Assembly (NCBI GenBank): GCA_024413595.1 | Contig: JAKSUC010000010.1 | Coordinates: forward strand, 1-64,000 | Direction of reading: 5' to 3' | Origin: Bacteroidales bacterium | GTDB lineage: Bacteria; Bacteroidota; Bacteroidia; Bacteroidales; UBA3824 | Length of the DNA: 64,000 nucleotides | Shown: positions 9,769-13,811 of the stretch, in pieces | How positions within the stretch are numbered: position 1 is the first letter of the stretch | How the letters are laid out: every line of letters begins with the position of its first letter | The notes under the pieces: model-generated | The model's database searches: none | Told to the model about the DNA's origin: nothing | Seen by the model: the letters and a program-made list of their open reading frames with translations, nothing else | Position numbers and translations under genes: made by a program

Positions 9769-11358
9769 TTATGCTTTAGCTTCAACGGCAGATTTTTCGA
9801 TAACTAATCCTTTTTTGTAGTTTTCGATATATTTGTTAAAACCTTCAACATCTTCAGCTGTTGGAGCAATTTCAACACCAGTATTTCCAGCAAAAACATT
9901 TTTATCAAGCCAATCGGCAAGATTAAGATTATTTTTGTTGATAACATAAGATGCAAGTAAAGCAATACCCCAAGCTCCGCCTTCACCAGCAGTTTCCATA
10001 ACAGAAATTGGAGAGTTGAGCGCAGCTGCAAGAACTCTTTGTCCTACGCCTTTAGTTTTAAATAATCCACCGTGACCTGTTATGCGGTCAATTTTGATTT
10101 TTTCTTCTTTTAAAAGAATATCATTACCAATTTTTAAAACACCAATTGAGCCATAAAGATGAACTCTCATAAAGTTTGCAAGATTAAATTTGTCGTTAGC
10201 CGAACGAACAAACATAGGACGACCTTCTGCTAAACCTGTTACAGGTTCGCCAGAAATATAGTTGTATGCTAACAAACCACCACAATCAGCATCGCCATTA
10301 AGAGCATTGTTGTAAAGTTTGCCATAAAGTTCGTTCATATCAACTTTATGTCCCATAAGTTCGAGTGACTCTTTAAACAAATTTACCCAAGCGTTAAGGT
10401 CAGAAGTACAGTTATTGCAGTGAACCATGGCAACTAAACTACCATCAGGAGTTGTAACCATGTCGATAGGTTCATAAGGTTTAGAAAGTTCTTTTTCAAG
10501 AACAATCATAGAAAAAGAAGAAGTACCAGCAGAAACATTACCAGTACGTTGTTTAACAGCGTTTGTTGCAACCATACCAGTACCAGCGTCACCTTCTGGA
10601 GGACAGAATGGAATACCTGCTTCAAGATTACCAGAAACATCAAGTTTTTTAGCACCTTCTTTAGTTAAACAACCAGCATTTTCACCAGCTTCCAAAACTT
10701 TTGGGAAAATATCTAACAATTTCCAACCAAAATTGTATGGCGCAATCAAATTGTCAAATTTTTCAACCATTTTAGCGTTGTAAGTTTTTGTGTTAGGGTC
10801 GATTGGTATCATACCAGAAGCATCACCAACACCTAAAACTTTTTCACCAGTAAGTTGCCAATGAATATAACCAGCAAGAGTTGTTTGGAATTTAATATCT
10901 TTAACGTGGCTTTCTTTATTTAAAATACATTGATAAAGGTGAGAAATACTCCAACGCAAAGGAATATTATAAACAAAAAGTTTAGATAATTCAGCCGCTG
11001 CTTTTCCAGTATTAGTGTTACGCCATGTGCGGAATGGTACAAGAATTTGGTTTTTATCGTCAAAAGCCATATATCCGTGCATCATTGCGCTAATACCAAT
11101 AGCTGCTAGTTTTTTGATTTCAACGCCATATTGTTTTTTAACATCATTGCGCAAATCTGTATAACAATCTTGTAAGCCTTTCCAAATAATATCAATGCTA
11201 TAAGTCCAAAGATTGTCAACTAATTGATTTTCCCATTCAAAACTACCTTGAGCAATTGGTTTGTTATTTTGATCTATTAAAACAGCTTTTATTCTTGTAG
11301 AACCAAATTCAATTCCAAGAATAGCTTTACCTGTTTCGATTAATTCTTTTGAAGTCAT
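9769..11358 (-). CDS. araK: FGGY carbohydrate kinase, L-ribulokinase of the arabinose operon
   Basis: 529 residues of the FGGY family. The N-terminal nucleotide-binding motif is [17 protein letters not shown], followed by [11 protein letters not shown] and, in the second domain, [13 protein letters not shown] and [16 protein letters not shown]. It is annotated as xylulokinase-like by sequence. As the last gene of an araR-araD-araA-kinase operon it is best read as the non-AraB ribulokinase that in Bacteroides phosphorylates L-ribulose to L-ribulose 5-phosphate in the cytoplasm. The gap before it is filled by a heptad-repeat element ending 12 bp from its ATG. Xylulokinase activity is the alternative. 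Confidence 0.85.
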
Positions 11359-11370
11359 AATATATTCAAT

Positions 11371-11405
11371 TTACGAATTACGAATTACGAATTACGAATT
11401 ACGAA
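11371..11405. repeat. Heptad array (TTACGAA)x5, left end of element 1
   Basis: Five exact copies of the 7-mer TTACGAA, 35 bp, ending 12 bp upstream of the araK start. It is complementary to the degenerate array at 11886-11906 and its flank (20 of 23 positions). Confidence 0.95.
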
Positions 11406-11458
11406 CTCAAAAATTAAAATAATTAAATTCTACATTCTATAATCCAAATGAATTAATA

Positions 11459-11827
11459 TTATTCTTTATTAATTTTTTTTTCCATGGATTTGATAATTGA
11501 GGTTAGTATTTTTAGAAATTCCTCACAATCATTTTTCATAGAAATAGTAATTTTTTCTTCAAGATATTCTCCACGAAAAAGTAGTTCTAACCAAAACATC
11601 GTTTCTTGAGCTTCTTTTCTTGCAATTTTTTATTTATGAACAAAATCTAAATTCGACTCTGCTCGTGTTGCTTCAGAAACGTTTGCACCAATCGAGGTTC
11701 AGCTTCTAAATATTTGTTTACTAATAATGTATTCTAGAATTGAACTATCTTGAAGATATTTAAATAAATTTACGATACGAATTGCGAAATCCATGACTTT
11801 ATCAACCAATATATTGTTCTCTTTCAT
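11459..11827 (-). pseudogene. Four-helix-bundle (S23/23S rRNA IVS-type) protein gene, two nonsense codons
   Basis: One continuous frame of 123 codons encodes MKENNILVDKVMDFAIRIV, then FRS, a stop, TSIGANVSEATRAESNLDFV, HK, a stop, KIARKEAQETMFWLELL and a normal C-terminus. This is the TIGR02436-type family (consensus RSGTSIGANVxEA and FIHKLxIAxKEAxET). The TGA at 11701-11699 replaces the family Gly (GGA) and the TAA at 11632-11630 replaces the family Leu (TTA), so each is one substitution. No frameshift is present, which suggests recent inactivation. Confidence 0.85.
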
Positions 11828-11885
11828 ATAAATAATTAAAAATATTATTTAATTGAAATAACTATGCTTGTAAAGTCATTCGGAT

Positions 11886-11906
11886 TTCGTAATTCATTAT
11901 TTGTAA
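11886..11906. repeat. Degenerate inverted heptads, right end of element 1
   Basis: TTCGTAA, TTCATTA and TTTGTAA in register, the last ending one base before the araA stop codon at 11907-11909. TTCGTAA is the complement of the left-end unit. Confidence 0.8.
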
Positions 11907-13439
11907 TTATTTAAGAGCTTTATTAAGCATATAATAAACTTCGTTGTTGCGGAGTTGTTGTTTAAAACCACTGATTGTGGTATCTTTATCAATGTTGATA
12001 AATTCAATACCAGTCATTTCTGCAAAATCTTCCCAATATTCAGCAGTAATATCGTAAGAGAATGCGCTGTGGTGAGTACCACCAGCTAAAATCCATGCAC
12101 CAGCACCAATTTCAAATGTAGGTTGTGGAACCCAAAGAGCAGAAGCAACAGGAAGTTTAGGCATTGGTTTTGGTTCGATACATTCAACTTCGCTTGTAAT
12201 CAAACGGAAACGGTTGCCAAGGTCAACGATTGTAGCTTTGATACCTTTTCCTGTTTTAGAAGTAAATACCAAACGAGCTGTTTGTTGTTTACGAATACCA
12301 ATACCTAAGTGATGAACTTCCAATTTAGGTTTGTCGGTAGAAATTAATGGACAAATTTCAAGCATGTGTGATTGTAAACTTGAAGTACAATCTTTAGCAA
12401 AATTTAAAGTATAATCTTCAAGGAAAGAACAACCTTTAGCTAAACCTTGGTTCATAATCCAAAGAGAACGGAACAAACAAGCAGTTTTCCAGTCACCTTC
12501 AGCACCAAAACCATAACCTTCTTCCATTAAACGTTGAGAAGCTAAACCAGGAATTTGGTCAAAACCAACAAAGTTTGGATCGTTGATGTCTGCATCACCT
12601 AAATCGTCGAAGTTAGTTGTAAATGCTGTTGCTCCTTCGTCTTTTAAAACACGACGTATAGCTATTTCTGCTTTAGCAGCGTTTTTAACTTTTTGCCAAT
12701 AAACTTGTTCTCCAGACTCGTCAATCTTAATTGTGTATAATTTTTTGTATTCTTCAACAAGAGCATCAGCTTCTGCATCTGTAACTTTTTTGAAATAATC
12801 CATCAAAGAAGAAACTGGATAATAATCAACATGATAACCAAGACGTTGTTCAAATTCAACGCGATCACCATCAGTTACAGCAACATTGTTCATGTTCATA
12901 CCAAACATTAAACAGCGAACGTCATGAGCGTCAGCAACTGCTGCTGCAACACGAGCCCAAACTGCAATTTTCTTTTGTGCTTCTTCGCTCTTCCAATATC
13001 CTACAACAACTTTACGAGCAATACGCATACGAGTGCAAATGTGACCGTATTCGATGTCTCCGTGTGCAGATTGGTTCAAGTTCATAAAGTCCATGTCCAT
13101 TGTATCCCATGGAATTTCTGCGTTATATTGTGTGTGGAAATGTAATAAAGGTTTCTTTAATTGTTGAAGTCCTTTAATCCACATTTTTGCAGGTGAAAAA
13201 GTGTGCATCCATGTAATAACACCAATACATTTTTTGTCACTATTTGCTGCTAACATTATTTCTTCTACTTCTTTTGAAGAATTAGCAGTTCCTTTATAAA
13301 CTATTTTTATAGGAATAATTCCGCCTTTGTTAAGACCTTCAACCATTTCTTTTGAGTGGCCATCTACTGCAACAACTGCATCACCACCATAAAGTAACTG
13401 TGCTCCAGTTACCCACCAAAGTTCTAAATTTTCAAACAT
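11907..13439 (-). CDS. araA: L-arabinose isomerase
   Basis: 510 residues, the usual length. The start MFENLELWWVTGAQLLYG is family-typical. Metal and active-site regions are present: EGYGFGAEGDWKTA (Glu), LQSHMLEICP with its His/Glu, and ILAGGTHHSAFSYD near the C-terminus with the conserved His pair. It converts L-arabinose to L-ribulose in the cytoplasm. It lies third in the araR-araD-araA-araK order, but heptad elements occupy both gaps around it (0 bp from the stop and 13 bp from the start). Confidence 0.97.
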   Translation of the reverse strand: MFENLELWWVTGAQLLYGGDAVVAVDGHSKEMVEGLNKGGIIPIKIVYKGTANSSKEVEEIMLAANSDKKCIGVITWMHTFSPAKMWIKGLQQLKKPLLHFHTQYNAEIPWDTMDMDFMNLNQSAHGDIEYGHICTRMRIARKVVVGYWKSEEAQKKIAVWARVAAAVADAHDVRCLMFGMNMNNVAVTDGDRVEFEQRLGYHVDYYPVSSLMDYFKKVTDAEADALVEEYKKLYTIKIDESGEQVYWQKVKNAAKAEIAIRRVLKDEGATAFTTNFDDLGDADINDPNFVGFDQIPGLASQRLMEEGYGFGAEGDWKTACLFRSLWIMNQGLAKGCSFLEDYTLNFAKDCTSSLQSHMLEICPLISTDKPKLEVHHLGIGIRKQQTARLVFTSKTGKGIKATIVDLGNRFRLITSEVECIEPKPMPKLPVASALWVPQPTFEIGAGAWILAGGTHHSAFSYDITAEYWEDFAEMTGIEFINIDKDTTISGFKQQLRNNEVYYMLNKALK

Positions 13440-13452
13440 AGTTTTAAAATTT

Positions 13453-13484
13453 AATTGATAATTGATAATTGATAATTGATAATT
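13453..13484. repeat. Heptad array (TTGATAA)x4, left end of element 2
   Basis: Four exact 7-bp units starting 14 bp upstream of the araA ATG. Positions 13453-13482 match the reverse complement of 13772-13801 at 28 of 30 positions. Confidence 0.95.
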
Positions 13485-13542
13485 ATAGAATTGATGAAAA
13501 GTTTGATAAATATCAATAAATCAGTTATTAATTATCATGTTA

Positions 13543-13696
13543 TTAATTATTATTATCTTTAGTTTTTTTTATTATAGCTGTTAAAATTTTTATGATTTCT
13601 TGACAATCATTTGTAATACTTACCTATTTTAATGAAATTGATAATTTTTGCTATAAAATCTGTAGTACTAAAATCTTTTACTATATTATTTTTCAT
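13543..13696 (-). pseudogene. Internally deleted four-helix-bundle gene
   Basis: The frame from the ATG at 13696 gives MKNNIVKDFSTTDFIAKIIN and FIKIGK, then a stop. Shifting frame at that point gives VSITNDCQEIIKILTAIIKK and a short tail ending at the TAA at 13543. These match the first 25 and last 30 residues of copy 1 (MKENNILVDKV...; ISMKNDCEEFLKILTSIIKS). The central residues, about 70, including TSIGANV, are gone. Confidence 0.75.
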
Positions 13697-13771
13697 AGCT
13701 GAGAATTATTGATTATCAATATTCTTAATCAAGTGTCAGATTATTATTAATTATTTTTTTTTAGTAGTGAA

Positions 13772-13799
13772 TTATCAATTTTCAATTGTCAATTATCAA
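13772..13799. repeat. Inverted heptads, right end of element 2
   Basis: TTATCAA, TTTTCAA, TTGTCAA and TTATCAA in register, complementary to the left array at 13453-13484. It begins next to a small AAAACAC/GTGTTTT hairpin (about 13804-13821) that overlaps the end of araD. Confidence 0.9.
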
Positions 13800-13811
13800 T
13801 TAAAAAACACT

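Follow-up and report, generated by a model that had tools for sequence, protein, structure and literature searches.

Decayed S23 elements with inverted heptad arrays in the spacers of a Bacteroidales arabinose operon as probable copies of a small mobile element

S23 genes and heptameric repeats in described systems

Intervening sequences (IVS) of rRNA with an S23 open reading frame occur in Coxiella and Leptospira and are, to our knowledge, the only form in which S23 elements have been described. We know of no role for the S23 (IVS) proteins, whose solved relatives are pentameric four-helix bundles related to Avd, the accessory protein of diversity-generating retroelements (DGR). The IVS of the Coxiella 23S rRNA bears two to three tandem GACAGAT heptamers and a degenerate one just upstream of the S23 reading frame, with a heptamer number that varies between strains, and has complementary ends and undergoes RNase III cleavage (PMC4990558). 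Heptameric intergenic repeats have been reported separately in Xanthomonas (GGGAATC), Nostoc and Beggiatoaceae (TAACTGA) (PMC4692102; PMC4679880). Like the arrays considered here, these are 7-bp arrays located right behind a stop codon, often in convergent pairs (PMC4692102), or directly upstream of a start codon (PMC4679880); they were tied, however, to G-quadruplexes or regulation, and a term search of both papers returned no mention of S23. In the open-access literature, no paper joining S23 with heptad arrays in operons was found, the link between S23 and heptads being made only for the Coxiella IVS (PMC4990558).

The elements described below share with the rRNA IVS the PF05635 protein, the tandem heptamers known from Coxiella (PMC4990558) and the hallmark of complementary termini around a single sense S23 reading frame. 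They differ from it in lying between protein genes of operons and in carrying repeat units that differ in almost all elements. The Coxiella heptamers are independent evidence that rRNA IVS and operon elements are of one kind, of which the IVS would be a special case. Some of the heptamers of Xanthomonas, Nostoc and Beggiatoaceae may, in turn, be gene-less relatives of S23 elements.

The two spacers of the arabinose operon

The window, i.e., the whole stretch of 64 kb that was analyzed, carries on its minus strand the genes araD, araA (L-arabinose isomerase) and an FGGY kinase gene (araK), in this order, with two spacers between them. The original prediction had placed in each spacer an S23 gene on the operon strand, surrounded by inverted arrays of 7-bp repeats. 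The arrays proved real and the S23 sequences do lie on the operon strand, as remnants instead of genes. The araA-araK spacer (11359..11906, minus strand), between the open reading frames 9769-11358 and 11907-13439, is a decayed S23 element. Its 3′ arm in the operon sense is a (TTACGAA)x5 array (11371..11405, minus strand; TRF period 7, 5 copies, 100%), and its 5′ arm is a degenerate inverted partner of TTCGTAA/TTTGTAA type (11875..11906, minus strand) that extends up to the araA stop codon and is 81-83% complementary to 11371-11405. Between the arms lies an S23 (TIGR02436) pseudogene (11459..11827, minus strand; ends read from the sequence), whose translation scores above the TIGR02436 family cut-off (E=1.8e-26) despite two in-frame stops, a TGA at 11699-11701 and a TAA at 11630-11632.

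Decay is stronger in the araD-araA spacer (13440..13811, minus strand). There, the 5′ arm is a heptad array located about 10 nt past the araD stop codon (13770..13804, minus strand), and the 3′ arm, an array reading TTATCAATTATCAATT in sense (13450..13484, minus strand; TRF period 7, 100%), stands directly upstream of the araA start codon; these (TTGATAA)-type arms of 35 nt are 94% complementary. S23 is reduced to fragments read from the frames, namely a C-terminal remnant (TNDCQEIIKILTAIIKKTKDNNN; 13543..13614, minus strand; HMM E=0.005) and a probable N-terminal remnant (MKNNIVKDFSTTDFIAKIINFIK; 13626..13696, minus strand), a weak assignment based on position and on likeness to the N-terminus of intact congener copies. 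The E-value of 0.005 comes from a search of all six frames, where chance matches scored 0.034 at best, and the TIGR02436 profile itself gave no match in this spacer. Hence, both S23 copies of the window are dead as genes. They are not inside a 16S or 23S rRNA gene, being sited between araD, araA and the kinase gene, and all three period-7 arrays with a TRF score of at least 50 in the window fall within these two spacers. Two further S23 loci of the source genome (L001 and L003) likewise lie between inverted arrays, with periods 7 and 8. Besides, a 249-residue open frame of the same genome (L004, G000:C109:21684-21818) encodes a longer protein that matches S23 in part, as do sequences in several congeners; proteins of this type seem to form a family of their own and could serve as an array-free control.

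Layout, arms and position of S23 elements across phyla

S23 loci were gathered at the levels of congeners, order and phylum, giving 103 Bacteroidota loci, and 78 named loci, ranging from Flavobacteriia to Clostridia, Deltaproteobacteria, Acidobacteria, Planctomycetes and others, formed the second sample. S23 proteins were present in 153 of the 198 sampled Bacteroidota genomes. A tandem array was located at most 500 bp from S23 at 55 of the 103 Bacteroidota loci on each side, compared with 1.0% in dinucleotide shuffles and 6% in windows more than 900 bp away, with array thresholds that were arbitrary but identical for the controls and with loci that, within one genus, are not independent. The periods of these arrays were mostly 7, 14 (i.e., 7+7) and 8. 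In the named sample, arrays were found at 46.8% of S23 flanks vs. 2.8% in controls. The same layout was observed at further loci in 12 genomes from other phyla and on cyanobacterial, spirochaete and clostridial plasmids, as in cas6-S23-cas4, sufA-S23-sufB and hsdS-S23-hsdR, and no 23S rRNA was found next to S23 at 40 tested non-Bacteroidota loci. Phage records contained no S23. Heptad arrays also occur without S23 and far from it, either as solo arrays or as gene-less derivatives. MITE-like inverted heptad pairs with no gene inside were seen at L194 1588-1719, L201 5177-5393 and L212 2101-2351.

When matches between flanks were counted at a score of at least 18 in the Bacteroidota sample, the 5′ flank matched its own 3′ flank as reverse complement in 40% and directly in 15% of cases, vs. 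0.3% for the 3′ flank of another element; in the named sample, inverted arm matches reached 38% vs. 0.4% with control geometry. The two arms are therefore inverted and element-specific. The 5′ arrays are mostly G-rich and the 3′ arrays C-rich (40:13 and 43:8, respectively; 32:2 and 32:4 in the named sample), so that units point one way relative to the S23 gene. Almost all units are distinct (54 of 59), and they evolve faster than the S23 protein while both arms of one element remain alike. An AATT/AATG core, noticed first and tested afterwards, is present in 22 of the 27 units of clade A, for which within-unit shuffles predict 7.7, and in 1 of the 32 units of clade B (Fisher p about 2e-10). 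Because this core tracks the S23 clade while the remaining unit changes jointly in both arms, it suggests that array units may be recognized by S23 or by a co-evolving factor.

The elements are also strongly oriented. With co-directional neighbors, 77 elements were in sense and 2 in antisense in Bacteroidota, and 62 vs. 2 in the named sample. The 5′ array starts at a median of 3 nt from the upstream stop codon (33 of 40 within −15 to +30), and in several cases this stop codon is provided by the first repeat. Since the stem is symmetric, the sense bias suggests that the element is coupled to transcription or that S23 has to be expressed. Antisense elements are rare; one of them is located between cas2 and cas1 on a plasmid of Nostoc sp. 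TCL26-01 (L343). In another operon, which encodes thiolase, carbonic-anhydrase-like and enoyl-CoA-hydratase-like proteins as read from sequence alone, consecutive spacers each hold an S23 element (L146, L150 and L155), as do both ara spacers, and S23 elements seem to cluster within operons. A hairpin-like motif, GTAAGGAATT..TTTGA/TTTAG..GTCTTAC, is found upstream of S23 elements in one genus, at two separate sites, being common to L145 and L163 and to L282, L283 and L287.

Gain, loss and target duplications

In a genus labeled g89, seven sites were scored as filled or empty in species with about 90-95% identical flanks and in more distant ones. Site 1 was filled in G084, G158, G221 and G123 and empty in G096, G112, G233 and G127, and site 7 was filled in G096, G112 and G123 and empty in G084, G158, G221, G233 and G127. 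At the base level, the stop and start codons of an empty site form a 4-bp junction or overlap, and in some of the “empty” species a solo array is left as a scar. Three compared sites bear different elements in different species. Turnover can be followed around the ara genes as well, where the 3′ side of araA has, depending on the species, a relic of S23, a GxxExxY gene accompanied by other arrays, or short hairpins. The comparison of orthologous ara operons had been proposed as a search for empty sites; these were found elsewhere, but all five readable congeneric araD-araA spacers hold an S23 element, with different units, and therefore no close empty site is available for the window copies. 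In the S23 tree, the ara-spacer copy of G003 stands apart, but an AU test does not reject one clade (p=0.27), and the ara-spacer copies may still derive from a single S23 by vertical descent.

The insertion itself is best seen on plasmids of Nostocales. On plasmid C of Trichormus variabilis ATCC 29413 (L327), a 428-bp insertion lies between two copies of GTAAT, which is single in the empty sites of Nostoc linckia NIES-25 and Tolypothrix PCC 7601 (L332/L333), with flanks 97.5% identical. Likewise, the comparison of Nostoc sp. ATCC 53789 (L344) with Nostoc sp. C057 (L351), at 91.7% identity, revealed a 5-bp duplication of TTCTA. Both duplications contain bases of the upstream stop codon. Clear 5-bp duplications were found at these two sites only, both on cyanobacterial plasmids; at a fourth plasmid site (L346 vs. 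L348/L349) the junction is too diverged for a duplication to be read, and gene-less insertions at other sites suggest duplications of other lengths. Relatives of the Nostocales element (78-83% nucleotide identity) occur in three unrelated plasmid contexts with a homology confined to the element, and gene-less derivatives of 185 bp that share its ends are scattered over many Nostocales plasmids. At the sites compared above, truncated or gene-less versions are present in other species. In Bacteroidota, instead, S23 copies inside one genome share a median of 33% identity, and only 1 of 156 pairs, a tandem duplicate, reaches at least 90%; this scarcity of close within-genome copies is unlike an active transposon.

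Taken at the level of sequence comparison and not of experiment, these data show an element that comes and goes as a unit. Its insertions are placed at a stop codon between co-directional genes, nearly always in the sense orientation, and can be accompanied by a 5-bp target duplication; gene-less derivatives arise from it, and one element has given way to another time and again in the same spacers. The idea of IVS-like elements in mRNA spacers, put forward in the original prediction, is thereby well supported, both by insertion and empty sites and by the occurrence of S23 with inverted heptads in operon spacers of many phyla.

Nature of the element and rival explanations

We consider, with a probability of about 0.72, that each ara spacer is the decayed copy of a small mobile element made of inverted 7-bp (sometimes 8-bp) arrays with S23 as sole gene. 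In such an element, S23 or a co-evolving factor would recognize the array units, and S23 would insert or maintain the element in concert with an enzyme of the host or one acting in trans. A transcribed hairpin might be tolerated at intercistronic junctions and in rRNA loops; in the latter case, the 23S rRNA IVS would be this very element at a different location. The elements contain S23 only, with no transposase, recombinase or reverse transcriptase, and no candidate acting in trans was identified. They resemble MITEs and insertion sequences in being short, with inverted ends, target duplication, gene-less derivatives and empty sites, but they are devoid of transposase, at their ends stand tandem arrays that keep a constant period while varying in sequence, they are sense-only in operons, and they have few close within-genome copies in Bacteroidota. 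As for the S23 protein, all 15 intact relatives examined match PF05635 (15/15), solved structures among its relatives being 2rld and 2gsc, and no match to anti-phage defence families was found. A dN/dS of 0.02-0.10 in ortholog pairs indicates purifying selection, and hence a functional S23 protein, though the window copies are not.

The elements could act mainly as RNA through the mRNA stem that the complementary arrays form, RNase III cutting this stem as in rRNA IVS and thereby separating the cistrons or tuning how the following gene is translated, which is the view taken in the original prediction. Such a role, which does not conflict with mobility, is a possibility to be taken seriously, though we would not bet on it. 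In its favor, both window spacers fold into predicted stems better than shuffles (z of −4.2 and −4.4), the elements are intercistronic and biased toward the sense orientation, and RNase III excises the Coxiella IVS, where heptameric repeats precede the S23 reading frame (PMC4990558). However, among the transitions that distinguish the arms, the G.U pairs in sense (227) are not in excess over the mirror class (316), the relation being slightly reversed, which gives no sign of selection for an RNA stem. Besides, the arms agree unit by unit and not position by position, and a stem alone fails to explain the sense bias, an inverted repeat giving the same stem in both orientations. A retroelement-like process, in which an Avd-related S23 and a reverse transcriptase acting in trans copy the element RNA into mRNA-coupled targets, would account for the bias, and the targeting of stop codons agrees with it. 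S23 has a weak profile similarity to Avd (bAvd, matched by 11 of the 15 S23 proteins), but it differs from DGR in that its elements have neither reverse transcriptase nor template and variable repeats, their repeats being 7-bp arrays. Moreover, RVT_1 is absent from 23 of the 43 Bacteroidota genomes with at least 8 S23 copies; a reverse transcriptase in the genome as a requirement for S23 maintenance was rejected on this ground, and the retroelement-like process as a whole is unlikely.

A history of vertical inheritance, with spacers kept as regulatory sequences of benefit to the host and arrays drifting through replication slippage, would agree with the strong purifying selection on S23 and with the congeneric araD-araA spacer being always filled. 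It is disfavored, and improbable, in view of the empty sites, the occupation of a single site by different elements among close species, the target duplications and the dead copies persisting in the window. Finally, the arrays might be chance microsatellites that lie beside an unrelated gene family, since short repeats do arise in AT-rich genomes and heptad arrays are also found far from S23. This was refuted by the shuffle, distal, mismatched-partner and geometry controls, and its probability is negligible.

Beyond the two ara spacers, the mobile-element reading can be widened, tentatively and at somewhat less than even odds, to a separate class of mobile elements across phyla. This class would be defined by one non-enzymatic protein and self-matching 7-bp arrays, its specificity shifting in both arms together and its insertion being tied to transcription direction and stop codons, and the rRNA IVS would be one of its side branches, as would, perhaps, many of the orphan heptamer arrays. 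Linking S23 to inverted heptads, stop-codon insertion and target duplications would provide a testable function for S23. It would also account for the heptamers that separate reports describe from rRNA IVS, Xanthomonas and cyanobacteria, and would reveal, in catabolic, cas, restriction and Fe-S operons, an element that settles between cistrons.

Two observations concern other sequences located close to S23 elements or arranged in a similar manner. In a KSB1 bacterium, two Acido-Lenti-1 RNAs (RF01687; L176 4026-4071 and 4599-4644) lie about 1.3 kb or less from an S23 element. Genes of the GxxExxY family (TIGR04256) were found between short tandem repeats at L118, L119, L124, L131, L138 and others, as well as at L036, downstream of araA. 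Their flanking repeats have a period of 9-11 and are both inverted and direct, and these genes with their repeats are possibly a second family of the same life style.
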